From: a bacterium MS4
GTDB taxonomy: Bacteria > Bacillota > Clostridia > Oscillospirales > Acutalibacteraceae
Assembly: GCA_000752215.1 (NCBI GenBank)
Contig: CCFG01000005.1
Location: 62,001 to 126,000 of the forward strand
Reading direction: 5' to 3'
Length of the DNA stretch: 64,000 nucleotides
Under the pieces are notes generated by a model. The model had not been told where the DNA came from and did no database searches. It worked only from the letters and a program-made list of their open reading frames with translations. Both the position numbers and the translations under genes were made by a program. Numbering within the stretch: position 1 is the stretch's first letter; each line of letters starts with the position of its first letter. Positions 4,965 through 21,436 of the stretch are shown here, in pieces.

Positions 4965-5798
4965 TTATTGTTGACGGCTGTCACACAAAGACAATTCATA
5001 TTGAATATATTTTTTCATTAAAGACCGGGTTTCATCTGGAACATATGTGTATTGATCAAATTCTTTAAGTTCTATTGCAGTAAGTACTGCAATAGCAAAA
5101 ACATGTGCATACATTTCAGTGGCCTCCTGCATTACAGCCTGACAATCCTCTGGAGATAGAATCAACTCATTGAATTTTTGAAAAGAAGCCGATGAAACTT
5201 CAATATCTCCGGTCAGGCTAACATTTAATACATGTCCCAGTTCATGAAGCAGAATGCATTCAGGCGGCGTTTTTATATCTTTTACTGCTCGCGGCATAAA
5301 GATGTCACAGAATGAGAAATGATCCGCATTGGTATACGGGCGGCAGAATGCATCAAAAACACGATGCCCACAGTCGGGTAATAAAACGAACATATGATTT
5401 CCGGATAATGTGTTGGATGAGAAATCATAATACTGATCCAAAAAAGATAAAAGTTTCGTCGCAGACTCTTCAGTAATTTGTGGGCCTTCCGCTGGAATAA
5501 AATCATTGCGAATCTCGTTTATGATCGATGAAAGGCGTTCAATGTTTTGTTTAAGATTTCGTACTTTCCCCCAAGATCGGTATAGATATACCTTGGAAGC
5601 TTGTATTCCACTGCAGACACTCCACGAAGGGTGTCCTTCTAAAAAAGAGTTCATCGCAATCCTTTCACAGGTGTGCTGCACCTCTAGGAATAATTTCTTC
5701 ATATCGCCTTGCGATAAATCGGGCTTAGTCAGGAAAAGTTCCAGATTATCTGCCAGTTCAAAAAAAGTATTAGCGCTCAACACTTCATAAGCGTTCAT
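4965..5798 (-). CDS. Putative zinc metallopeptidase-like protein with HELGH motif
   Basis: A 277-residue soluble protein with a zincin motif ILLHELGHVLN near residue 188 and a downstream acidic helix EATEMYAHVFAIA near 225 that could supply the third zinc ligand, as in gluzincins. The N-terminal 150 residues are helical and unlike any family I recognise. No signal peptide, so it acts in the cytoplasm if active. The start has AAAAGGAG 8 bases upstream. It is the last chromosomal gene before the degenerate tRNA-Arg repeats and the integrase, and resembles stand-alone metallopeptidase-fold proteins found on mobile elements. Activity and substrate unknown. Confidence 0.6.
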   Translation of the reverse strand: MNAYEVLSANTFFELADNLELFLTKPDLSQGDMKKLFLEVQHTCERIAMNSFLEGHPSWSVCSGIQASKVYLYRSWGKVRNLKQNIERLSSIINEIRNDFIPAEGPQITEESATKLLSFLDQYYDFSSNTLSGNHMFVLLPDCGHRVFDAFCRPYTNADHFSFCDIFMPRAVKDIKTPPECILLHELGHVLNVSLTGDIEVSSASFQKFNELILSPEDCQAVMQEATEMYAHVFAIAVLTAIELKEFDQYTYVPDETRSLMKKYIQYELSLCDSRQQ

Positions 5799-5923
5799 AA
5801 TGACAACTCCTTTTAATTATATTTTTATGACAAGAAAAGCAAGCGGCAGTTTGCTAATTTTACAGAATAAACTATGTAAATTGGATAGACTTATCACCTT
5901 TTTGCAAAATCAAAAATGATAAC

Positions 5924-6042
5924 TGGATAGAGCGACCGCCTCCTAAGAGAACCCAGACCGTTCGCTTTTGGCGGTACGCACCACCAAAAAATTATATATG
6001 TTTCCGTAGCTCAGTTGGATAGAGCGACCGCCTCCTAAGAGA
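5924..6042 (+). repeat. Two 27-base direct repeats derived from tRNA-Arg(CCT) (candidate attachment site)
   Basis: The same 27 bases, beginning TGGATAGAGCGACCG and ending CTAAGAGA, occur at 5924-5950 and 6016-6042, 92 bases apart. They correspond to the D-arm/anticodon region of a tRNA-Arg with CCT anticodon. They lie directly beyond the 3' end of the integrase gene, the usual place for an att core. This is read as tandem attachment-site scars; the reciprocal copy outside the window, if any, is not visible. Confidence 0.6.
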
Positions 6043-6066
6043 TAGGTCGGTGGTTCAACTCTTACA
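6001..6066 (+). pseudogene. Degenerate tRNA-Arg(CCT) fragment
   Basis: TTTCCGTAGCTCAGTTGGAT and the following CTCCTAA anticodon loop are tRNA-Arg-like. The anticodon stem does not close (ACCGC against GAGAT), the T stem is mismatched, and there is no 3' acceptor complement to the 5' TTTCCGT. It therefore cannot fold as a normal tRNA and is called a remnant left by integration or excision. The rest of 5799-6110 shows no gene. Confidence 0.65.
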
Positions 6067-6110
6067 CATTAAAACTTAAAAAAATTAAGATTTTGGCATA
6101 CTATTCACCT

Positions 6111-7325
6111 CTAATCTTTATAAAAATCCTGCTCAAATCGTACCGCGTTATCTCTGCGGCATTGATCCAGAATATGCCCATAGGTTTCTATAATCATATC
6201 CGCCTGAGCATGTCCGGAATCGCCCTGTACCGCTTTGATATTACCGCCGGATAAGATCAGCTTATAGGTAATGCTGCTATGTCTCAGACTATGAAAAGAT
6301 ACTTTGGGAAGCCCTGCCTGCTGAAGTGCTGCATGAAAATACTTGGTAAGGGTACTTTCCTGAATGGGGCGACCGTCCTCATAACAGAAGATCATATCCG
6401 GAGCATCTGATACAACAAAATAACTATTTTTTGATTGCAAGCTTTGATGGTTCTTCAAGGCTTGCAAAACTGTTTTTGGCAGGTAAACTATGCGTACACT
6501 GGCCTCTGTCTTAGGCTGCTTCAAAACCAACAGTGTCTGTAGTTCCCTGCCCGTTGGAGGGAATACAAATAAAATATCTTTTCCGTTAAGCTGTTCGGCT
6601 GCCTCCCTACTGATACGAGAAAGCGTCTTATTGATATGAATAGTGCCAGTATCAAAATCTACGTCTTCCCACGTAAGCGCCAAAAGCTCCCCCTTTCGAA
6701 GGGAGCCTGCAAAGGCCAAGTGAATTCCGAGTGATAATATTGGATCACAATGTGACAGAAGTGCTTCAATCTGCATTGGTGTGAGAAAATTCTGGTGTCT
6801 GGAATGCATTTTAGGTAGCGGGGCTCGATAAAATGGATTTCGAGTTACATATTCCCATAGAATAGCCTGCTCAAAAGCGCTGTGGAGAACCTTGTGTATG
6901 CTATGAAGCGTGCAGGCAGAAATGGTTTGCTCTTTCCAATGATGATAAGGGCTGTCAATCCGGGTCTGGGTAAGCAAACGCCGGTACAGTTCTGCTACTA
7001 CTCGGGGCGTTAGTTCTGTAAGCCTCATGGAACCGAGATGCGGTAAAATGTAGTGCCGAATGAGACCACAGTTTGCCTGATAGGTTGAAAAAGACCATCT
7101 TGGAATACCGTAGAGGTGAATATAGACCTCCATCAACTGCTCTACCGTTTCTACCCGATGTGTCTCCAGCGCTTTTTTGTGCCGACAGTACAGGTTAATT
7201 TGTTCCACACGGATTTTAGCTTTTTCCAAAGTGGAATAGGTTTCCCACCTCTGCTTACGAGCACCGTCTATCGTATCCATATAGACCACTGAATAACTTT
7301 TACCCCGCGTTACGATTGATGCCAT
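6111..7325 (-). CDS. Tyrosine-type site-specific integrase
   Basis: A 404-residue phage/ICE-type tyrosine recombinase. An N-terminal arm-binding domain (about 1-55) and a SAM-like core-binding domain (about 60-170) are followed by the catalytic domain. Catalytic residues are visible: Arg in SLRKGELLALTWEDV near 210, the HSLRHSS box near 345, His in GDSGHAQ near 371 and the nucleophile Tyr in ETYGHI near 382. The start overlaps the stop of a 26-codon ORF (TAATG), with AGGAGGAATC upstream. It sits next to tRNA-Arg-derived repeats, so it probably used a tRNA-Arg gene as target. Most like integrases of Tn916-type or prophage elements; the rest of such an element is reduced here. Confidence 0.93.
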   Translation of the reverse strand: MASIVTRGKSYSVVYMDTIDGARKQRWETYSTLEKAKIRVEQINLYCRHKKALETHRVETVEQLMEVYIHLYGIPRWSFSTYQANCGLIRHYILPHLGSMRLTELTPRVVAELYRRLLTQTRIDSPYHHWKEQTISACTLHSIHKVLHSAFEQAILWEYVTRNPFYRAPLPKMHSRHQNFLTPMQIEALLSHCDPILSLGIHLAFAGSLRKGELLALTWEDVDFDTGTIHINKTLSRISREAAEQLNGKDILFVFPPTGRELQTLLVLKQPKTEASVRIVYLPKTVLQALKNHQSLQSKNSYFVVSDAPDMIFCYEDGRPIQESTLTKYFHAALQQAGLPKVSFHSLRHSSITYKLILSGGNIKAVQGDSGHAQADMIIETYGHILDQCRRDNAVRFEQDFYKD

Positions 7326-7405
7326 TAAATAGATTCCTCCTGTTGGTTTTCATTGCTTAAAATAGCAAAGATATTTTCGCGTGTCTTGATCACAGTATTT
7401 GCCAT
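7325..7405 (-). CDS. Short leader ORF coupled to the integrase gene
   Basis: A 26-codon ORF starting MANTVIKTRENIFAIL, with GGGAGA upstream of the ATG at 7405. Its TAA stop overlaps the integrase ATG (TAATG), and the integrase ribosome site lies inside its last codons. This arrangement suggests translational coupling. No similarity recognised; too short to be an excisionase. Confidence 0.4.
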   Translation of the reverse strand: MANTVIKTRENIFAILSNENQQEESI

Positions 7406-7434
7406 AAGTGTCTCCCATCCTATAAACGCGCAAA

Positions 7435-7470
7435 ACGCCCGGAGCTTTCATTCCATGAAGCTCCGGGCGT
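7435..7470 (-). terminator. Rho-independent terminator downstream of the TA/ParB operon
   Basis: A 13-base perfect inverted repeat, ACGCCCGGAGCTT (7435-7447) with AAGCTCCGGGCGT (7458-7470), 10-base loop, followed on the minus strand by TTTT. It would end transcription coming from the HipA-like gene. Confidence 0.6.
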
Positions 7471-7564
7471 CGATTGGCACCAGATGCAAATAGGGACTGA
7501 TTGATGTCTTAGCATGTGCGGAGGCTGCGCAGCTCATTTTTCTAACATACAAGCAGTATCCTTT

Positions 7565-8383
7565 TCACAGAGTCTTCTGCCTAGTCAGGATGCACTCTGT
7601 CACCCGATCAGCAATGATACCGCGGTCACGCTCGGCATAATATTCCAGCATCGGCTGCAGCATGTCGCGGATCTCTTTGTCGCTTAGTTTCGGAATCATA
7701 AGCTGCTTTCCGTAGAGACTGCGCGCCGAGTTCATCTGGCGAGTAAACGTCGTATGAAATGGTCTGGCATGCAGTGTGGCAATAAGCGCCTTGGGTGCAA
7801 CGTCCATCTGCAGGATCTGTGTATTGGAGAGAAGCCCTGCGCCGTTATCGAAGATGGGGCAGTAATCATACATTCCCGATTGCTCAATCACTGCAATGTT
7901 GTTCAAATGCCGGTCGTCATTGCAGAACAGCGCATCAACCTCAAACAGCAGTGTCAGGTAGCGTGGGAACTCCGTCAGCCCAGTGTACTCGGCTGTAGCT
8001 TCCGCCAAATACGCGATGCGTCTTTTATCGCTGGGAAGCTGCATCAATTTTTGCTTTAGAGGCACGCCGAGATGGTTAGTTAACAGGCGGTTGATAGTAA
8101 TCAACGACTGTCCCGGTCTCAGAAAATTTTGGCTTACGCAGCCAGTGCGCTCCCGGTTGTGGACGTGCAGCTTCTCCATGCGGTAGCGCACGAAGATAAA
8201 GGGTGTATCCGTTTCGATACTGCTTTTTTCCAGCAAAACGGAGATCAGTGTTTCCGTCAGTGCCTCATAGCCGAACTGGTCGAGCTTGTACCAGCTGTCC
8301 ATAATGCTATCATACCACTTTTCCTGATTGCCCTTGGAGGAGGTCTCGGCGATCTTTTCATCAGACACAAGCCGTACCGTCAT
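7565..8383 (-). CDS. HipA-like kinase toxin (C-terminal kinase domain only)
   Basis: A 272-residue protein with the HipA catalytic signature: DALFCNDDRHLNN near residue 150 (catalytic Asp and metal-binding Asn) and CPIFDNGAGLL near 176 (DFG-like metal-binding Asp). It is shorter than full HipA (about 440) and lacks the N-subdomain, resembling short HipA-C/CtkA-like Ser/Thr kinases. Its ATG overlaps the stop of the upstream AbrB-like gene, typical of an antitoxin-toxin pair. Predicted to phosphorylate a cytosolic target and stop growth when free. The target (for example an aminoacyl-tRNA synthetase) is not deducible. Confidence 0.75.
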   Translation of the reverse strand: MTVRLVSDEKIAETSSKGNQEKWYDSIMDSWYKLDQFGYEALTETLISVLLEKSSIETDTPFIFVRYRMEKLHVHNRERTGCVSQNFLRPGQSLITINRLLTNHLGVPLKQKLMQLPSDKRRIAYLAEATAEYTGLTEFPRYLTLLFEVDALFCNDDRHLNNIAVIEQSGMYDYCPIFDNGAGLLSNTQILQMDVAPKALIATLHARPFHTTFTRQMNSARSLYGKQLMIPKLSDKEIRDMLQPMLEYYAERDRGIIADRVTECILTRQKTL

Positions 8384-9091: not shown

Positions 9092-9955
9092 TTATTTTTT
9101 GGATAAGCCGCCAGAACGTTTCCACTCATCTAGCAGACGGAAGATAATCTTCTCCATTTGACGAGGTGTGGTTCCATGCGGAAAATACTGCATCAGCTGA
9201 TCTTCCCGCAGCTTTAGCCGATCCACCTGATTACCCTTTTGCTCACTCAGGATATCAAAAATTGTGTCTATATCGAGCTTTCCCTCCTGACTAAGCTTTT
9301 TCAGAGTTTGTGCCTGAGAAAGGGATGGGGTGGCCTCTTCGGTAATAATAGTCTCCAGCAGCATACACTGCTCATCGTGTTTGAGAAAAGATATCTCCAC
9401 CGCAGGGCCAAATGCGATGCGGCCTTCATCCACCATTCTCAATAGATTTTCTTCGAGGGAAGTCAAACGGATATAACGAAATACCTTATCGCGACTTTCA
9501 CCAGTTACTAAGCCGATCACAGAAGCTGAATCGCTTTTTCCTAACTTAGTCGCAACTTGCGACAAAGATGGCTTTCCCTGATGTTTCATCGCCTCCAGCT
9601 TCATACGGTAAGCAAACGCCTTTTCACTGGGAAGCAGATTTTCCCGCTGTTGATTAGCGTCCACCATCAGAATAGTAGCAGCATCGTCATCCAAATCCCT
9701 TACAATTGCCGGGATGGTCTTTCGCCCGATCAACCTGCAGGCGGCTACCCGGCGGTGACCGGACAGCAGTTCATAACCATCGCCATAGGGACTGGGGCGT
9801 ACGATGCAGGGCGTGAGCACGCCGTTTTCCTTAATGCTCTCGGCCAGTTGCTCCAAAGTATCATCTTCAACCACTCGGAATGGATGGCTTTCAAAGGGCT
9901 GTAGCTGCTCCAAGCGGACAGATACGCTTTTTTCTCCTGTGTTAGTTTTCATCAT
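9092..9955 (-). CDS. ParB/RepB/Spo0J-family protein
   Basis: A 287-residue protein with an N-terminal ParB/Srx-type nuclease-like domain: LQPFESHPFR, EQLAESIKENGVLTP, ELLSGHRRVAACRLIG with the GHRR box near 75, and DANQQRENLLPSEKAFAY. It is followed by a KorB-like HTH segment near 135-165 and a helical C terminus. Such proteins are common on conjugative elements and plasmids, where they regulate or partition DNA using CTP-dependent clamps. The ATG at 9955 has GAGG 6 bases upstream. It overlaps the end of the HTH gene and has no ParA partner in the window, suggesting an element-encoded regulator rather than a chromosome segregation system. Confidence 0.85.
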   Translation of the reverse strand: MMKTNTGEKSVSVRLEQLQPFESHPFRVVEDDTLEQLAESIKENGVLTPCIVRPSPYGDGYELLSGHRRVAACRLIGRKTIPAIVRDLDDDAATILMVDANQQRENLLPSEKAFAYRMKLEAMKHQGKPSLSQVATKLGKSDSASVIGLVTGESRDKVFRYIRLTSLEENLLRMVDEGRIAFGPAVEISFLKHDEQCMLLETIITEEATPSLSQAQTLKKLSQEGKLDIDTIFDILSEQKGNQVDRLKLREDQLMQYFPHGTTPRQMEKIIFRLLDEWKRSGGLSKK

Positions 9956-10406
9956 CGGAATCCTCGCTTTCATAAGGTCGCACCGTTACATACCGCTGCT
10001 TTACATGGCCGGGATACTCCGGAATAGTCATCCGGATCACGCCTTCTTCCAGCAGGGGATGCAGTACGGTGTCCCGGAAAAATTTCCGGTCGGATAAATC
10101 GAGGAATTCCTGAATTTGTTTGCGGCTCCTTGGGGTTTGGCAGTAGAGCGCCACTGCAGCCCGTCTCTGCTCGTGAAAACGCTGTTGTCGTTGAAATCCG
10201 TATTTCTGGATGTACTCGATGAGCCATAGCTTGGGTACCCGGACCCAGCGGTCGAACTTAATGCTGTTGATCTCGCCGGAACGAAGCATCCGGTAGACAC
10301 GCTTCTTGTCTAGATTCATGATGACCGCCACATCATCGACCGAAAGAATATCGTCATAGGTGGCGAACATCTGCAAATACAGCTCATCTATGGTAAGCTT
10401 CTTCAT
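9942..10406 (-). CDS. Excisionase-family HTH protein
   Basis: A 154-residue protein. Residues about 15-65 form an excisionase/MerR-like winged helix (DILSVDDVAVIMNLDKKRVYR, EINSIKFDRWVRVPKLWLIEY). Residues about 90-135 form a second winged-helix-like segment (RSRKQIQEFLDLSDRKFFRD, LLEEGVIRMTIP) like the C terminus of RecG-type/Fic-associated regulators. The ATG at 10406 is 9 bases after GGAGG. A TTG at 10415 abuts the ribosome site and is unlikely. It lies in one operon with the ParB-like gene, with overlapping ends, so it is probably a regulator or directionality factor of the integrated element. Confidence 0.75.
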   Translation of the reverse strand: MKKLTIDELYLQMFATYDDILSVDDVAVIMNLDKKRVYRMLRSGEINSIKFDRWVRVPKLWLIEYIQKYGFQRQQRFHEQRRAAVALYCQTPRSRKQIQEFLDLSDRKFFRDTVLHPLLEEGVIRMTIPEYPGHVKQRYVTVRPYESEDSDDEN

Positions 10407-10680
10407 GGGACGCAACCTCCGTTTCCTTGCTTTGTCGGCAGCAAAGAGTCGGAAATTGCTGGGGGGTAAATTGAGTTTATGGGATAGACTTGACGGGGAT
10501 TTGCTATCAATTCTCTATCGTTTCGACTCTGACATGGGGTAAAAGCTCCTCCTTTCTTATATTACCTGTATAGCGCGCCGCTTCAGCCTTTGTTGCCTAC
10601 AAACCCGCATGATATAAGGATTTTTCGGCATATTCAAAGGCCTTGAACGACCATGATCGGCCTCTCCGTACCTTTCCATT

Positions 10681-11111: not shown

Positions 11112-11534
11112 TCATTTCGGCGTTTTTTCAGAGGATAAACGATAGGTCTTTTCTCTGGCCAAAGCCCTTTGAAGGCTTGCCTTAGCACGAAGCATATCGG
11201 TGGTTGGTTCCTTCCGTTCTATACGTTCCCTGGCCCTTCGTTCGGAGGCTTCGGCACGGGAAAGGTCAATATCCTGTGCTGCCTCGGCAGCGCGTACAAG
11301 CAGTGTGACGCTGTTTTCAAGCACATCCACTACTCCGTTTCCCACACAGACATACTCCGTCATATTCCCAAACTCGCATTTTACCGGGCCGTCTCTGACG
11401 GCGGCAAGCAGGGGAGCGTGACCGGCCAGAATACCGGCGTCTCCGTTTTCCAGCGGCAAACCTGCATAGTGCACTATTTTTTCGTATTTGACACCGGCAG
11501 AGGTCATCACACAAAGATGTATTCTGTCTTCCAC
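11112..11534 (-). CDS. atpC: ATP synthase F1 epsilon subunit
   Basis: A 140-residue F1 central-stalk subunit. The N-terminal beta-sandwich (VKYEKIVHYAGLPLENGDAG, ILAGHAPLLAAV) and the C-terminal helical hairpin (IDLSRAEASERRARERIERK) are both present. It couples rotation and can inhibit ATP hydrolysis. The start is GTG at 11534 with AAGGAGGGTT upstream. Last gene of the minus-strand atp operon, 11 bases after atpD. Length is normal. No clear terminator follows on the minus strand. Confidence 0.93.
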   Translation of the reverse strand: MEDRIHLCVMTSAGVKYEKIVHYAGLPLENGDAGILAGHAPLLAAVRDGPVKCEFGNMTEYVCVGNGVVDVLENSVTLLVRAAEAAQDIDLSRAEASERRARERIERKEPTTDMLRAKASLQRALAREKTYRLSSEKTPK

Positions 11535-11545
11535 AGGAACCCTCC

Positions 11546-12946
<1,401 letters not shown>

Positions 12947-12964: not shown

Positions 12965-13831
12965 TCATTTTTTATGCTTGAGTGCGGACGCACCGCCGGC
13001 GATTTCGGCAATCTCGGTGGTGATGGCCGCTTGACGCGCGCGGTTGAGCTTCAGCCTGAGTTCCGCAATCAACTCCTGTGTATTGTCCGACGCAGCGGTC
13101 ATTGCCCTCATCCTGGACGCGTGCTCCCCTGCCCTAGCTTCAAGCAGGGCCGAATAAACCGTGCTGTTGATATGCAGATGCAGCACGTTTTCAAGAATCG
13201 TCGGGCGGTCCGGCTCGAAGAGATACGCTTTATCTGTCGTTTTTTCTTCAGCCTCCTCCGGCTTTTCCGGCAGAAGCTGAGCTTTGCAGGGAGTCTGACT
13301 GAGGGCGTTGACAAATTTTTGGTAGACCAATACGACCTCATCCGCTTCGCCGTTCAGGTACATCCTCTTAAGATACTCGGCAAGCCGTATCCCCTGCTCC
13401 GCACTCGGCGTATCGCCTATGTCGTCAAAAACGCGTTCAACCGGAAGACCTGCCTTGCGGATTACGTCCTTCCCCCAACGGCCGCATACGACCACTGAAT
13501 ACGTGCGCTGGGCCGAAGCCGCCAGGTCGGCCATATAGCGGAGAAGATTGCTGTTATATGCCCCACACAGGCCGCGGTTGCTCACAAACAGCACATAACA
13601 GACCTTTTTCACCTCGCTTCTGGGCTGAATCAGTACGTTTGAATGAATTTCATCTCCGCCGGACAGTACCGCCAGTATTTCCCCACTCTTCCGGGTAAAA
13701 GGGCGCATGGCTTCCATGGCTGACTGCACCCTTCTCAGCTTTGATACCGACACCATTTTCATGGCCTTTGTTATTTTCTGAGTGCTTTTTACATTTTTGA
13801 TATGCGCGCGTATTTCGCGCATGGCTGCCAT
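12965..13831 (-). CDS. atpG: ATP synthase F1 gamma subunit
   Basis: A 288-residue rotor subunit. Both termini carry the coiled-coil shaft: N-terminal REIRAHIKNVKSTQKITKAM with KMVSVSKLRR, and C-terminal MRAMTAASDNTQELIAELRL with LNRARQAAITTEIAEI. The middle Rossmann-like domain includes SNRGLCGAYNSNLLRY. Length is normal. Follows the b/delta/alpha fusion gene and precedes atpD in canonical order. Confidence 0.95.
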   Translation of the reverse strand: MAAMREIRAHIKNVKSTQKITKAMKMVSVSKLRRVQSAMEAMRPFTRKSGEILAVLSGGDEIHSNVLIQPRSEVKKVCYVLFVSNRGLCGAYNSNLLRYMADLAASAQRTYSVVVCGRWGKDVIRKAGLPVERVFDDIGDTPSAEQGIRLAEYLKRMYLNGEADEVVLVYQKFVNALSQTPCKAQLLPEKPEEAEEKTTDKAYLFEPDRPTILENVLHLHINSTVYSALLEARAGEHASRMRAMTAASDNTQELIAELRLKLNRARQAAITTEIAEIAGGASALKHKK

Positions 13832-13890: not shown

Positions 13891-16131
13891 TCAGAACGAC
13901 TGCCTGAAGTCCCTGATCGCCTCACGGAGCTTGCTGAGAGTACCGGCGGACAGCTTCTTTCCTGTCATAATTTCCTCATACAGCGCCGGACACGCACAAT
14001 AGACATGATCCACAAGCTCCGATTCAAAGCGCGCAACGTCCTTTATGTCTACATCATCGATAAAGCCCTCGTTTGCCGCGAATATCTGGATGACCTGATC
14101 CTCCACGGACATGGGGGCGAACTGATCCTGCTTCAAAATCTCAGTCATCCGCGCGCCGCGCTCCAAAATCTCGCGGGTAGTCTTGTCAAGGTCGGACCCG
14201 AACTGGGTAAAGGCGGCCAGCTCCCTGTACTGGGCCAGATCCATTCTCAGCCGGCCCGCGACCTGCTTCATTGCGCTAATCTGTGCCGCACCGCCGACAC
14301 GGGACACCGACAGGCCGACGTTAACGGCGGGACGGATACCGGAATGGAAAAGGTCCGTCTCCAGAAAAATCTGGCCATCGGTGATGGAAATGACGTTCGT
14401 AGGAATATACGCGGAGATGTCGCCGGCCTGCGTCTCAATAATCGGCAGCGCCGTCATGCTTCCGCCGCCGGCCTCTTTGCTTAGCCTGGCCGCGCGTTCC
14501 AGCAGACGCGAGTGCAGGTAAAAGACGTCGCCGGGGTATGCTTCCCGTCCGGGCGGCCTCTGCAGGAGCAGGGAAATTTCACGGTACGCCACAGCCTGCT
14601 TGCTGAGGTCGTCATACACAACCAGAACATCCCTGCCGTTATACATGAAGTACTCACCCATCGCCGCGCCTGTATAGGGCGCAATATAAAGCATGGGTGC
14701 GGGTTCGGAGGCGTTGGCCGAAATGACAATGGTATAGTCCATCGCACCGTGAGCGCGGAGCTTTTCAACCACCCCGGCTACGGTGGACTCCTTCTGCCCG
14801 ATGGCAACATAGATACAGACCACGTTCTTGCCCTTTTGGTTGATGATCGTATCCAGCGCGATGGCCGTCTTGCCGGTTTGCCGGTCCCCTATGATGAGCT
14901 CGCGCTGACCGCGCCCGATAGGCACCAAAGCGTCAATGGCTTTGATACCGGTCTGAAGCGGTACGGATACGGGCAGTCTGGAAAGGACGCTCGGAGCGGG
15001 GCTCTCAATTGCTCTTCTTTCCGCTGCAGCGACAGGACCCTTATCGTCAATCGGAGTACCGAGGGCGTTGACCACACGGCCGATCATGCTCTCGCCGACA
15101 GGGACGTCGATGATCCTTCCCGTACGGCGCGCCTGTTCCCCTTCCTGCAGCCTTTCATAGTTTCCGAGCAGGATGACGCCGACATTGTCCCTGTCAAGGT
15201 CCTGAACCATGCCGCGCAGGCCGTTGCCGAACTCCAGCATCTCTCCCGCCATGACGTCAGCAAGGCCCGACACACGGCAGATGCCGTCTGCGACGGTCAC
15301 GACCGTTCCGGTCTGAAACACATCAATGCTGCTGTCAGCCGTCTTCAGCTTCTCCTTGATCCCTTCAATAATGCTCTGCATTTTCTTGTCCGACCTGCGG
15401 GTATTCTTTTCGACATCCCGGCTGAGCTTATCCAGAGAATTCGCAAGCGTGCCGTCATATACGGTGTCGCCCACCTTCATCCGGATGCCGCCGATGACGC
15501 GGTCGTCGACCTCATTGGTGCAGGAAAGGAAGGTCTCGCACATTATTTGTGTCAGCCGCTTCATTTCCTCCTCGGAAAGAGGCTCGGCGCTCGATACGGT
15601 AATATTCAGTTTCTTCAATTCATTCATATTCAAAATATCACTCGGCATTGCTGCCATCAAATCCTCAATTTTTTCTATAAATGCGTCTGTAAGGGCCTGC
15701 CTTGATGAAGCGAACAAATCCTGTTTCAGTGTGTTTTCCGCCAGCGCCACTACTTTCTTTACCGCTTCGGCGCCCACTTTTCCCACCATCTCCTGGCGCA
15801 GCAGATGCTCGGTTTCAGAGGCGTTGGCAAGAATGATTTCCGCTTCATGCTCGCTGAGTTCCACGGCCGACTTACTGCTTAACTGCGCCTGCGCTTTCGC
15901 GCGCTCAATGATTTCCTTCTGCTGTTCCTCGGCGGAAAGCGCAGCGCTTTCCATGTCGGACATCAAGGCTTTTGCCTGTTTTCTGCCTTCTTCGGATCGT
16001 TTCAGTTCCGCTTGTACTTTTTCCCTGTGTCCCCGAACTGCTTTCTTAACACTCTTTCCGACAAAGAAATACAGAGCGGCAAACAAAATCAGGAAGTTCA
16101 TAACGGCATAGAAAAATTGCAATCCGGTCAT
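13891..16131 (-). CDS. atpA: ATP synthase b-like / delta-C-like / alpha fusion protein
   Basis: One uninterrupted 746-codon frame. Residues about 1-25 are a single membrane helix ([20 protein letters not shown]) followed by a long charged b-type stalk to about 150. Residues about 165-235 resemble only the C-terminal part of delta/OSCP ([44 protein letters not shown]). From about 241 ([13 protein letters not shown]) a complete alpha subunit follows: [32 protein letters not shown] Walker A, SISDGQ-type regions and a normal C terminus. The operon also has a separate atpF but no separate atpH. An internal start at the alpha methionine is possible, but only a weak AGGTCGG precedes it. If translated whole, alpha would be covalently tied to the peripheral stalk. 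Confidence 0.9.
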
Positions 16132-16215: not shown

Positions 16216-16650
16216 TTACCCGGCAGGCTCTGCCTCACCGAGAAGGTGGAAAGTAAGCACGGACACAAGCTCCGGCAGGCTTTTCCCCACGTCTTTTCTT
16301 GCGGCTTCTTCCTCCTCGGCTATACGTCTATTAGCGGAACTGCGCATGGAAGCCGCACTTTCATTCGCCCTGTTAAGAATTACGGCTTTTGTCTGCTCGT
16401 CGGCAGCCCTGGACTCGCTTAAAATCCGTCTGGCCTCGATGCTGCTTTTTTGCAGATTCTCAGCCAGCTGTTTTGCATTCTCTTCCTTCGCCTGACCGGC
16501 TTTTTCCCCTTCGGCGATCCCTTCGTCGATTCGGGCTTTCTGTGCGTCCATAAATTTCAGAAGAGGGGTATACAGGAAAATCTTCAACAGAAACATCAGC
16601 AGAAGAAAATTGATGATGGTCCATACCATCTCTGATAGATCGAGCTTCAA
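16216..16650 (-). CDS. atpF: ATP synthase Fo b subunit
   Basis: A 144-residue peripheral-stalk subunit: N-terminal membrane helix MVWTIINFLLLMFLLKIFL, then a charged coiled coil (ARIDEGIAEGEKAGQAKEEN, ADEQTKAVILNRANESAASM). Slightly shorter than typical b (155-170) and ending near AEPAG, so it may rely on the second b-like stalk encoded by the next gene to reach F1. Lies between atpE and the fusion gene. Confidence 0.9.
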   Translation of the reverse strand: MKLDLSEMVWTIINFLLLMFLLKIFLYTPLLKFMDAQKARIDEGIAEGEKAGQAKEENAKQLAENLQKSSIEARRILSESRAADEQTKAVILNRANESAASMRSSANRRIAEEEEAARKDVGKSLPELVSVLTFHLLGEAEPAG

Positions 16651-16686: not shown

Positions 16687-16914
16687 TCATATCTTTGCAA
16701 CCAGCATAAACGCGATCAGCAGTCCGTAGATGGTGAGCGCTTCCAAAAGAGCCATTGCCAAAATCATGCTGGTCCGCAGGGTGCCGGCCATTTCCGGCTG
16801 GCGGGCCATTGCCTCCAGCGCTTTGGACGCCACGAGACCCTGTCCTATTGCCGGACCCAATGTACTCAGCGAAATGGCCAGGGCCGCTGCGATTGCAATC
16901 ATGTCTGAACCCAT
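16687..16914 (-). CDS. atpE: ATP synthase Fo c subunit
   Basis: A 75-residue two-helix rotor proteolipid. Helix 1 carries GPAIGQGLVASKALEAMARQP with the polar-loop ARQP. Helix 2 carries MALLEALTIYGLLIAFML with the ion-binding Glu. The Gln in GQG is the residue used by sodium c-rings, but the Ser/Thr that normally follow Glu in sodium enzymes are Ala-Leu here, so proton coupling is more likely. The start at 16914 fits the family; an overlapping longer frame is a shadow. Confidence 0.95.
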   Translation of the reverse strand: MGSDMIAIAAALAISLSTLGPAIGQGLVASKALEAMARQPEMAGTLRTSMILAMALLEALTIYGLLIAFMLVAKI

Positions 16915-16956: not shown

Positions 16957-17640
16957 TTACTCTTCTTCCCCGGTTGCTTCGCTTACAAAAATTGCGAGCA
17001 GCATGGTAAACACCATGGCTTGGATCAGACAGAACAGCAGACTCAGCACCTGCATCACCAGTGGCAGCAAAACAGGGAACATGGCTGCCAACTGCTCTGT
17101 CACCTGTTCTTCCCCGAAGAGGTTGCCGTAAAGCCGCAGAGCCAGCGAAAAAGGCCGAACGAGCTGCTCTATAAGAATCAGCGGCAGCAGAAAAGCAACC
17201 GGTTTAAGAAACGACTTGAGATATCTACTTAATCCCTGGCATCGGATTCCTATGGTATGGGTCGTAAAAAAAGATACCACCGCAAGTCCGCCTGTGACGG
17301 ACAGGCCGGCTGTGGGAACGGAAAACAGGTGTCCGGCGCCGGGGAACAGCCCTGAATAATTTGATACGACAATAAACAGGAACAAAGTGGCAAATACGGG
17401 AAAGTATCTGCGCATAGGCTGATACCCCATAATGTCCGCAAAAAAGCCCTCCAGCTTCTCCACCGCCATCTCCGCCAAATTTTGCAGAGGTCCCGGCACA
17501 TCCCTCAGGCTTCTTGTCGCAAGGATGGAAAACAGTACCAGAACCAGCATGATTACCCACGTCGTCACCACGGACTTTGTGACCGCAAGGCCAAGGATCG
17601 AGAACAGGACATTTGATTGTTCTTCCAAGCTTCTTATCAC
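16957..17640 (-). CDS. atpB: ATP synthase Fo a subunit
   Basis: A 227-residue integral membrane stator subunit with five to six hydrophobic segments. The essential arginine is in RPFSLALRLYGNLFGEEQV near residue 168, with the second-half signature VMQVLSLLFCLIQAMVFTML. It forms the ion half-channels with the c-ring. First core gene of the operon, followed by atpE after 42 bases. Confidence 0.95.
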   Translation of the reverse strand: MIRSLEEQSNVLFSILGLAVTKSVVTTWVIMLVLVLFSILATRSLRDVPGPLQNLAEMAVEKLEGFFADIMGYQPMRRYFPVFATLFLFIVVSNYSGLFPGAGHLFSVPTAGLSVTGGLAVVSFFTTHTIGIRCQGLSRYLKSFLKPVAFLLPLILIEQLVRPFSLALRLYGNLFGEEQVTEQLAAMFPVLLPLVMQVLSLLFCLIQAMVFTMLLAIFVSEATGEEE

Positions 17641-17664: not shown

Positions 17665-18072
17665 CTATTTGTGGCACCTTGAAAGATGCAGGATCAATAG
17701 TGTGGACACGGCGGAAAGGCCCAGAGACGTACCGATCACGACGGCCGCAAAGGGCCACGGCAGGAGATCGCGCAGAAAAAATACGACCGCAAGGGCAACA
17801 GCGTTAATCAGCATCCTGGCAAAACTGACGCCCATGACGGAAATTATTCCATTTTTTCCGCTGCCGTTCCGGCTTCTTTCCATATATGATTTGCTGATAC
17901 GGTAATTCAGGAAGGCTGCGAGGCTTCCGAAGATCAGGCCGGCCATACCTCCGGCTGCTACCTCTATCATCACGGCATTACAACCCAAATTTCGTGTGAG
18001 CTTTTGCGCTTTTCCATATTTGCTCTCATGGTTTTGATTTCCCATTCCTTTCATTGCATCCGGTTTCAGCAT
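17665..18072 (-). CDS. AtpI-like membrane protein (ATP synthase I-type)
   Basis: Up to 135 residues, with hydrophobic segments at VAAGGMAGLIFGSLAAFLNY, MLINAVALAVVFFL and FAAVVIGTSLGLSAVSTLLI, giving four potential helices, as in AtpI, which assists c-ring assembly and sits first in atp operons. Twenty-four bases upstream of atpB. The start is uncertain: ATG at 18072 has no strong ribosome site, and internal ATGs near 18054 and 18045 are possible. Family assignment rests on position and topology more than sequence. Confidence 0.6.
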   Translation of the reverse strand: MLKPDAMKGMGNQNHESKYGKAQKLTRNLGCNAVMIEVAAGGMAGLIFGSLAAFLNYRISKSYMERSRNGSGKNGIISVMGVSFARMLINAVALAVVFFLRDLLPWPFAAVVIGTSLGLSAVSTLLILHLSRCHK

Positions 18073-18430: not shown

Positions 18431-19339
18431 CTACATAGAAGCAATCCGCTTTTTAAAGTCGGCGTCTCTGATTACCTGTTTCAGCGCGTCGGATACTTCC
18501 GTACTCCAATACCCTTTTTTGCATTCCTGACTCAATTTTAAGAATGCTTCGTTTTCATCTCCGCATTCTTCCATAAGTCCCATAAATCGGTTGATTGTCA
18601 CCATGATTTTCAGATTGAGCGGCATCTGTCTGGCGGTCAATCCGTCCGGATAACCCTCTCCATTCAGCTTTTCATGATGGCTCCGGACATATGAGTCCAG
18701 CCAGGTGTGCATATTCAGAGGCGAAATGATTTTTAAGCCCTCCTCAATATGCTCGTCGGGATCGTCGGTAATGATTTTCCCAATATCATGCAGGCAGCTT
18801 CCTACGACCAGTTGATGCATATTCTCATCGATGACATATAGAATCCTGCCCACACTTTCACAGTAGTGGCTCAGATTGACAGAATGAAGATAGGCTTTGT
18901 AATTCAGGGCCTGAAGAGTGTTAAGAAGGGCTTTTACGACCGCATTCCCGGGCTCCATCACTTCGAGCGTCTTTTTATACCGTACCGCCCACTCCACCCG
19001 GTTTTTCAGTTCCTCGTATTTTACAGGCTTTGATAAAAACGCATCCGCCCCCATATTGAAGGCGTGAATCCGGTCCTCCATATCGTTCAGGGCCGTAAGA
19101 ATAATAATCGGTATCTTATGTGTCTCCTCAAAGGTTCTCAATTTGTTGCAGATAGCAAATCCGTTCATCCCCGGGAGCATGATGTCCAGCAAAATGACGT
19201 CGGGTTTAAAATCCACCACACAGTCGAAGACCTCCAAACTGTTGGTGCACACTTTTGTATGATAGCCCCACGTCGTCAATAAGTCGTCTATGATCTCGAT
19301 GGCAAGTTTATTGTCATCGACAATAAGAACGTTATCCAT
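18431..19339 (-). CDS. Response regulator with HD-GYP phosphodiesterase-type output
   Basis: A 302-residue two-domain protein. The receiver (about 1-120) has acidic pocket VLIVDDNK, phospho-acceptor Asp in VILLDIMLPGMNGF near 52, and Lys in AFLSKPVKYEEL near 104. The HD domain (about 150-280) has HDIGK and HHEKLNGEGYPDGL, the HD-GYP variant that hydrolyses cyclic di-GMP. The start at 19339 has AGGAG 8 bases upstream; a GTG at 19348 overlaps the ribosome site. Third gene of the operon with the sensor kinase and PocR-LuxR regulator, so it likely receives phosphate from that kinase. Whether the catalytic metal ligands are complete was not verified by alignment. Confidence 0.85.
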   Translation of the reverse strand: MDNVLIVDDNKLAIEIIDDLLTTWGYHTKVCTNSLEVFDCVVDFKPDVILLDIMLPGMNGFAICNKLRTFEETHKIPIIILTALNDMEDRIHAFNMGADAFLSKPVKYEELKNRVEWAVRYKKTLEVMEPGNAVVKALLNTLQALNYKAYLHSVNLSHYCESVGRILYVIDENMHQLVVGSCLHDIGKIITDDPDEHIEEGLKIISPLNMHTWLDSYVRSHHEKLNGEGYPDGLTARQMPLNLKIMVTINRFMGLMEECGDENEAFLKLSQECKKGYWSTEVSDALKQVIRDADFKKRIASM

Positions 19340-19390
19340 ACCGGTCACTCCTAAATCTTCCTAAACAAAAAGCGTACTTTGCGGCGTACA

Positions 19391-21436
<2,046 letters not shown>

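Follow-up and report, generated by a model that had tools for sequence, protein, structure and literature searches.

Bacterial F-type ATP synthases are usually taken to have one stalk and one a subunit, and the N-terminal domain of delta normally sits on the three-fold axis, with one stalk per enzyme. This arrangement has been altered by engineering. Ueno et al. (2025) deleted the N-terminal domain of delta in the FoF1 of Bacillus PS3 and joined the remaining C-terminal domain to alpha; the resulting delta(dN)-alpha enzyme carried up to three stalks, each with an a subunit, contained 2.2- and 1.8-fold the wild-type amounts of a and b, and had an H+/ATP ratio of 5.8 (PMC12229609). According to the authors, it is the delta N-domain that limits the number of stalks to one; they propose that the number of protons per turn equals the number of c subunits times the number of a subunits, quote measured H+/ATP ratios of about 3 to 4, and suggest that nature may also use multi-stalk enzymes (PMC12229609). 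The engineered particles often lost stalks during cryo-EM preparation, and the stalks that were observed always kept their a subunit (PMC12229609).

Natural relatives of these designs have been described. Natural delta(dN)-alpha fusions are reported in the same paper (Acidaminococcus fermentans, UniProt G4Q3K6 and A0A1I2C5T3; PMC12229609). Fusions of b to delta, which an earlier note on the DNA studied here had mentioned for actinobacteria, are described from Gordonia and Mycobacterium, where a second b gene is present, in a paper that also mentions Clostridia transcription units without delta (PMC5709465); in the accessible part of that paper, the “b-delta-alpha” strings are gene orders. The joining of the delta C-terminal domain to alpha with loss of the N-terminal domain is therefore already known, and a literature search found no b.delta.alpha fusion in the accessible parts of the printed sources.

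One reading frame joins b, the C-terminal domain of delta and alpha

We analyzed a stretch of 64,000 nucleotides (the window) from the bacterium MS4 (contig CCFG01000005.1, positions 62,001 to 126,000), which contains the following gene and parts:

13891 to 16131, minus strand: b.deltaC.alpha triple-fusion gene, one open frame of 746 codons (746 aa) with an ATG start and no internal stop
15652 to 16131, minus strand: b-like part, about residues 1-160, a long stalk helix preceded by a hydrophobic helix at the N terminus
15394 to 15645, minus strand: delta/OSCP C-terminal domain, residues 163-246 (Pfam OSCP, modelled strands and helices, Foldseek matches to delta/OSCP chains)
15319 to 15453, minus strand: linker between the delta-C motif and the beta-barrel of alpha, residues 227-271, of fixed length and containing Met251
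13891 to 15384, minus strand: complete F1 alpha, residues 250-746 (TIGR00962, 798 bits, over cut-off)

The claim of the earlier note that a b-like stalk, the C-terminal part of delta and a whole alpha share one frame is borne out by the open reading frame, Pfam and TIGR00962 alike. The profile search of the N-terminal region that it had proposed matched both ATP-synt_B (residues 6-135, 4.4e-10) and OSCP (residues 169-238, 1.1e-11), the latter at profile positions 97-170 of 172 only, and Pfam placed the three alpha domains at residues 274-742. Profile and PDB matches show that the delta N-domain is absent from the fusion and that the delta C-domain is joined to the N terminus of alpha; with only this part of OSCP matched in a single frame, the proposed loss of the delta N-domain and the covalent link between alpha and a stalk part both stand. 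The internal methionine that had been put near residue 241 is at residue 251. All 84 distinct fused genes that we collected (the window's included) encode a strongly hydrophobic N terminus. We regard the triple fusion in the window as confirmed.

An AlphaFold2 model of the full-length protein, based on 70 sequences, reached a pLDDT of 77 and a pTM of 0.63, and a model of the N-terminal 247 residues a pLDDT of 82.6 and a pTM of 0.52. The b part was modelled as a helix of residues 3-135 in the former and as 2 helices (3-59 and 67-136) in the latter. When the full-length model was compared to the PDB using Foldseek, the top three matches were chains of 9JC1, an entry titled “Engineering of ATP synthase” in which chain I is a delta-alpha fusion, and which presumably represents the engineered enzyme of Ueno et al. 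(PMC12229609). The same chain I was the best PDB match with phmmer, collinear over query residues 180-745 and only 5.5 bits above a plain alpha. Matches of the N-terminal model were mycobacterial b-delta, delta/OSCP and V-ATPase stalk chains, with TM scores mostly of 0.2-0.5 and large rmsd. The relative placement of domains in these models is not reliable: the full-length model fitted 9jc1_I with an rmsd of 23.8 A and a TM score of 0.45. Considering this rmsd and the pTM of 0.63, we set aside a model of how the delta C-domain docks on alpha.

Operon and genome context

The other genes of the operon are:

17665 to 18072, minus strand: AtpI-like small membrane protein, a weak match (PF03899, 0.0094, below its cut-off)
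16957 to 17640, minus strand: a subunit, 227 aa, with SLALRLYGN (Pfam; TIGR01131 over cut-off)
16687 to 16914, minus strand: c subunit, 75 aa, with GQG and LEALTIY (TIGR01260 over cut-off)
16216 to 16650, minus strand: separate short b subunit, 144 aa, TTG start (ATP-synt_B, 1.5e-17)
12965 to 13831, minus strand: gamma subunit (TIGR01146, 280 bits, over cut-off)
11546 to 12931, minus strand: beta subunit (TIGR01039, 800 bits, over cut-off)
11112 to 11534, minus strand: epsilon subunit, both domains (Pfam; TIGR01216 over cut-off)

Together with the fusion, these genes are ordered AtpI-like-a-c-b-(b.deltaC.alpha)-gamma-beta-epsilon, all on the minus strand. The retention of a separate atpF, noted earlier, is confirmed by the Pfam match of the 144-aa b gene, which scored just below TIGR01144 (59.8 vs 65.5), yet above the Pfam cut-off; its product is presumably the partner of the fused b helix. 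Alpha, beta and gamma all scored over the cut-offs of their F-type models, and the gene order is the classic one. The arginine motif of the a subunit, of the type SLALRL(Y/F)GN, is present in the window and in the loci of 74 of the 80 relatives described below. In these 80 loci, 78 c subunits were found with phmmer, of which 73 carry MEALTIY. We take the alanine that follows the carboxylate in c (EALTIY) to be a proton-type signature. This alanine would speak against sodium coupling. Judged by these sequence features, the operon encodes an F-type, probably proton-coupled ATP synthase or ATPase.

For the relatives, we took as epsilon the frame nearest the end of beta, which gave a set of 69 of the 80 loci after dropping 11 in which beta or the following frame is missing or cut. 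The N-terminal epsilon model (Pfam) matched 69 of the 70 frames scanned (the window and 69 relatives). The C-terminal inhibitory domain PF00401 was matched in the window only (1 of 70, E<=0.01) and in none of the relatives.

The operon is immediately preceded, on the same strand (18431-21436), by genes for a response regulator with an HD domain and a large histidine kinase. Downstream of it, a phage-type integrase gene (6111-7325) and a small frame that appears to resemble a DNA-binding excisionase (9942-10415) possibly represent an integrated element adjoining the operon.

We also searched the source genome as a whole (3.74 Mb, 17 contigs, 98.61% complete). A profile search found no atpH or other free delta: the sole OSCP match in the genome is the part inside the fusion, in agreement with the absence of atpH claimed before. 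Likewise, no second F-type alpha was found in the whole genome, the other six alpha-related matches being the window's beta, a FliI and two V-type A/B gene sets (contigs 13 and 17). RnfC scored over its cut-off, and a search for hydrogenase gave a partial match only. Given the presence of RnfC, an ion-pumping complex of this anaerobe may feed the operon's enzyme.

Distribution, selection and origin

The survey of oversized atpA genes that had been proposed earlier was carried out on 394 sampled genomes of the order, 206 of which have an F-type alpha at E<=1e-100. At least 17 of the 394, the source genome included, carry the triple fusion (a frame of at least 736 aa, with the N-terminal query covered), spread over four families (f1, f19, f20 and f21 in our numbering), and in one further genome (G142) the fusion is cut by the contig end; the frames of the 16 other genomes and of G142 were read. 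In samples of the class (391 genomes) and the phylum (398 genomes), a complete b.deltaC.alpha was found in the source genome only, among the matches listed. Among those listed for the class, 24 had stop-free frames of 583-691 aa, of which one (L115) was read. The surveys of order, class and phylum cover the best-scoring rows, and fusions with lower scores may have escaped them.

Among 171 relatives in named genome records, 80 were kept, all of which are metagenome-assembled genomes (MAGs), and in many the sample name refers to ruminants, “Lapin” or horse; some genomes occur both in this set and in the order sample (e.g. as L120 and G059, respectively). A frame with both parts was present in 78 of the 80 loci, complete in 76 and cut in 2; in the remaining 2 loci, the contig ends within alpha. 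As far as the contigs extend, the relatives' operon reads (I)-a-c-b-fusion-gamma-beta. All 80 loci have a b frame next to the fusion (mostly 138-147 aa, a few cut or longer), and no plain alpha was found on any of the 80 stretches. Two genomes, G091 (loci L047 and L057) and G375 (L049 and L058), combine an operon that carries the fusion with a second, classic one in which a full delta is encoded separately. In total, there are 83 distinct fused genes besides that of the window.

These 83 genes, together with the open junction in a congener, rule out an error of sequencing or assembly, or chance. A stop between the segments, which the earlier note had named as refuting evidence, is absent from the junction in the window, in the congener (G770) and in the 83 other genes. 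That note had known of no b-delta-alpha fusion; this agrees with our literature search as far as the sources were accessible, but the fusion is not an isolated case, since the 80 relatives and the tree described below place it in a conserved clade.

Of the 11 genomes of the genus, 4 gave an F-type alpha match at E<=1e-100; the 7 genomes without one include incomplete genomes. In the congener G770 (87% identity), the junction is equally open and alpha is broken by ambiguous assembly bases. Two other genus genomes (L203 and L204) encode an alpha fused to a nearly whole delta (677-683 aa; OSCP profile positions 23-172 and 26-172). The genus thus mixes ATP synthase designs. Comparison with the congener gave a dN/dS of 0.06 in alpha (residues 272-630), 0.09 in delta-C (161-226), 0.135 in the linker (227-271), 0.26 in the stalk (31-160) and 0.14 in residues 1-30. 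The linker value indicates purifying selection.

For the history of the fusion, we built a quick maximum-likelihood tree of 92 alpha rows, consisting of 27 b.deltaC.alpha (a chosen subset of the 84 distinct genes), 3 deltaC.alpha, 59 taken as plain and 3 N-ATPase. All 27 b.deltaC.alpha rows fall on one side of a branch with an SH-aLRT of 99, the window being the deepest, while the three deltaC.alpha rows stand at separate places and need three changes. In a genome of another order (G408), b and a downstream deltaC.alpha share one frame and are separated by a single stop, which plausibly pictures the step before fusion.

One chain or two

If nothing is processed, all three alphas of an enzyme are tied to a stalk part, rather than one F1 subunit to one stalk as the earlier note had it. 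The same note had rightly posed the alternatives of three stalks or an internal start that makes free alpha, and the comparative data favor three tethered alphas. Among the 84 distinct fused genes, both anchors of the linker were found in 83. In 81 of these, 45 residues separate the end of the delta-C motif from the alpha barrel (44 and 47 in the other two), even though the linker sequence is variable; in another count, the motif-to-barrel spacing is 53 in every row of the fusion clade that was read. An in-frame ATG, GTG or TTG occurs at the junction in 68 of the 83 genes, at differing positions, and is absent from 15; counting ATG only, 45 genes have one and 38 have none. The best Shine-Dalgarno energy at the junction has a median of -2.2, with 27% of genes at -4 or below (no start being counted as 0), as against a median of -4.7 and 71% at true starts, and a median of -3.0 and 35% in 748 control windows within alpha. 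Considering that the start positions differ, that 15 of 83 genes have no start at all and that the Shine-Dalgarno energies are weaker than those of true starts, we found no conserved internal start for free alpha at the junction of these 83 genes. In the window itself, Met251 is a possible internal start: its Shine-Dalgarno energy of -4.1 is near the true-start median, a value of -4 being reached by 35% of the control windows as well.

An internal start of this kind, or proteolysis, would yield a mixture of alphas, with one tethered alpha per enzyme in a normal single-stalk F1Fo that merely has an unusual clamp. Apart from Met251, such a mixture would have the merit of preserving the conventional stoichiometry, and a long membrane anchor on each alpha would presumably be costly. 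We nevertheless consider it unlikely, as the junction has neither a conserved start codon nor a conserved Shine-Dalgarno sequence, and the linker is kept at a fixed length under purifying selection. Moreover, a single-stalk enzyme would be expected, from what is reported of the engineered enzyme, to keep the delta N-domain that is lost here (PMC12229609).

A candidate three-stalk enzyme

Provided that the encoded protein is made in full and left uncut, every alpha must carry a stalk. We favor, with a fair degree of confidence, the reading that every alpha brings its own b, which would make this a natural three-stalk F-type enzyme with a conserved, covalently anchored multi-stalk design. Each of the three alphas would be preceded in its own chain by a membrane-anchored b helix and the delta C-domain, and each fused b would pair with one separate short b, forming up to three b/b stalks. 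With the delta N-domain gone, three stalks could coexist, as in the engineered 9JC1 enzyme; because the fusion shares the two changes made in that enzyme and adds b to the chain, three tethered stalks of fused b and free b would be expected. Each of these stalks could hold its own a subunit, and more a subunits would raise the H+/ATP ratio, so that the enzyme might still function when the proton-motive force is low, or pump steeply in reverse. The observations behind this reading are the gene and its conservation, the fixed linker with its purifying selection, the lack of a free delta and of a second F-type alpha in the genome, and the match to 9JC1. We infer the single polypeptide in the cell, the three stalks, the several a subunits and the energetic effect from the genes and their known counterparts.

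It may also be that only one of the three b pairs has an a subunit. In another possible arrangement, all three alphas are tethered, with only one stalk formed with the free b and the single a, and two b anchors left passive. The operon has only one a gene and one separate b gene, and the stalks of the engineered particles were often lost in preparation (PMC12229609), both of which would suit this arrangement. However, the three sites are equivalent once the delta N-domain is gone, and every stalk observed in the engineered enzyme came with a, the contents of a and b being 2.2 and 1.8 times those of the wild type (PMC12229609), so we judge passive anchors to be distinctly improbable. A decaying locus or an assembly join, in an organism that relies on its two V-type ATPases, would fit the two V-type A/B sets and the 7 of 11 genus genomes (some of them incomplete) without an F-type alpha match at E<=1e-100, but given the complete operon, a dN/dS of 0.06-0.26 along the gene and 83 other distinct fused genes, we give it hardly any credence.

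Returning to the three-stalk reading, its stronger form, in which the natural F-type enzymes of this gut Clostridia-like clade have three a subunits and as many covalently anchored stalks, is put forward more tentatively, at a little under even chances. If it is true, the H+/ATP ratio would, by the relation of Ueno et al. (PMC12229609), equal the number of c subunits in the ring, far above about 3 to 4, and ATP could be made at a very low proton-motive force. A covalently attached b would also remove the loss of stalks seen with the engineered enzyme, and the fusion would thus offer a natural design for a stably multi-stalked enzyme. The clade is a widespread candidate for natural multi-stalk synthases whose H+/ATP ratio is set by the number of a subunits, and this is directly testable.

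Comparison with known systems

V-ATPase stalk chains, presumably subunit E, were among the Foldseek matches of the N-terminal model, with TM scores of only 0.2-0.4. In V-ATPases, three E/G stalks stand on the non-catalytic subunits, which would be a shared plan; unlike these stalks, the fusion consists of F-type subunits throughout, with a membrane-spanning b and a covalent link. Among F-type enzymes, that of Chloroflexus aurantiacus (PDB 9ITJ and others) may be a natural case with two stalks, as there are 72 b chains in 18 of its entries, or four in each, and 12 delta chains in 6, or two in each.

N-ATPases are like the fusion in having no delta (PMC5706428), and the N-ATPase b model TIGR03321 (246 positions) aligns end to end with fusion residues 9-241. 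Assignment of the locus to the N-ATPases was rejected: alpha scored 658.2 against a TIGR03324 cut-off of 750.5, b scored 71.9 against a TIGR03321 cut-off of 224.7, and the N-ATPase order beta-epsilon-...-a-c-b-alpha-gamma (cf. Picosynechococcus) is found neither in the window nor in its relatives. N-ATPase b and alpha are separate in Picosynechococcus and in A. ramasamyi (L201), in the latter annotated as two overlapping genes. On plasmid pAB510c of Azospirillum sp. B510 (L199, ~5470-7761), N-ATPase b and alpha lie in one open frame of which only alpha is annotated, with b matched at 9.9e-14 and the C-terminal part of OSCP just below cut-off; this b has been marked as missing, probably misannotated as part of alpha (PMC4154653).

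The mycobacterial b-delta protein (e.g. PDB 7JG5) resembles the fusion in that delta follows a b helix within a single chain and that a second b gene exists. It differs in that its 445 aa comprise a full delta and its alpha is separate, whereas the window's fusion has no delta N-domain and includes alpha. The 445-aa chain presumably also contains an extra part. The natural delta(dN)-alpha fusions, to which we add those of L056, L090 and L115 (586-611 aa stop-to-stop), share deltaC.alpha without the delta N-domain and differ by their unfused b. The delta-less Clostridia units of PMC5709465 may include fusions such as the one described here.

The engineered delta(dN)-alpha FoF1 has in common with our locus the lack of a delta N-domain, the delta C-domain on the N terminus of alpha and the absence of a free delta, and the linker of 9JC1 aligns with that of the window's fusion with a one-residue gap. 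Its epsilon C-domain was deleted by design, and this domain is unmatched in 69 relatives and matched in the window. In the engineered enzyme, b forms separate homodimers, whereas here one b helix per stalk would be supplied within the alpha chain itself, alongside one free b gene.
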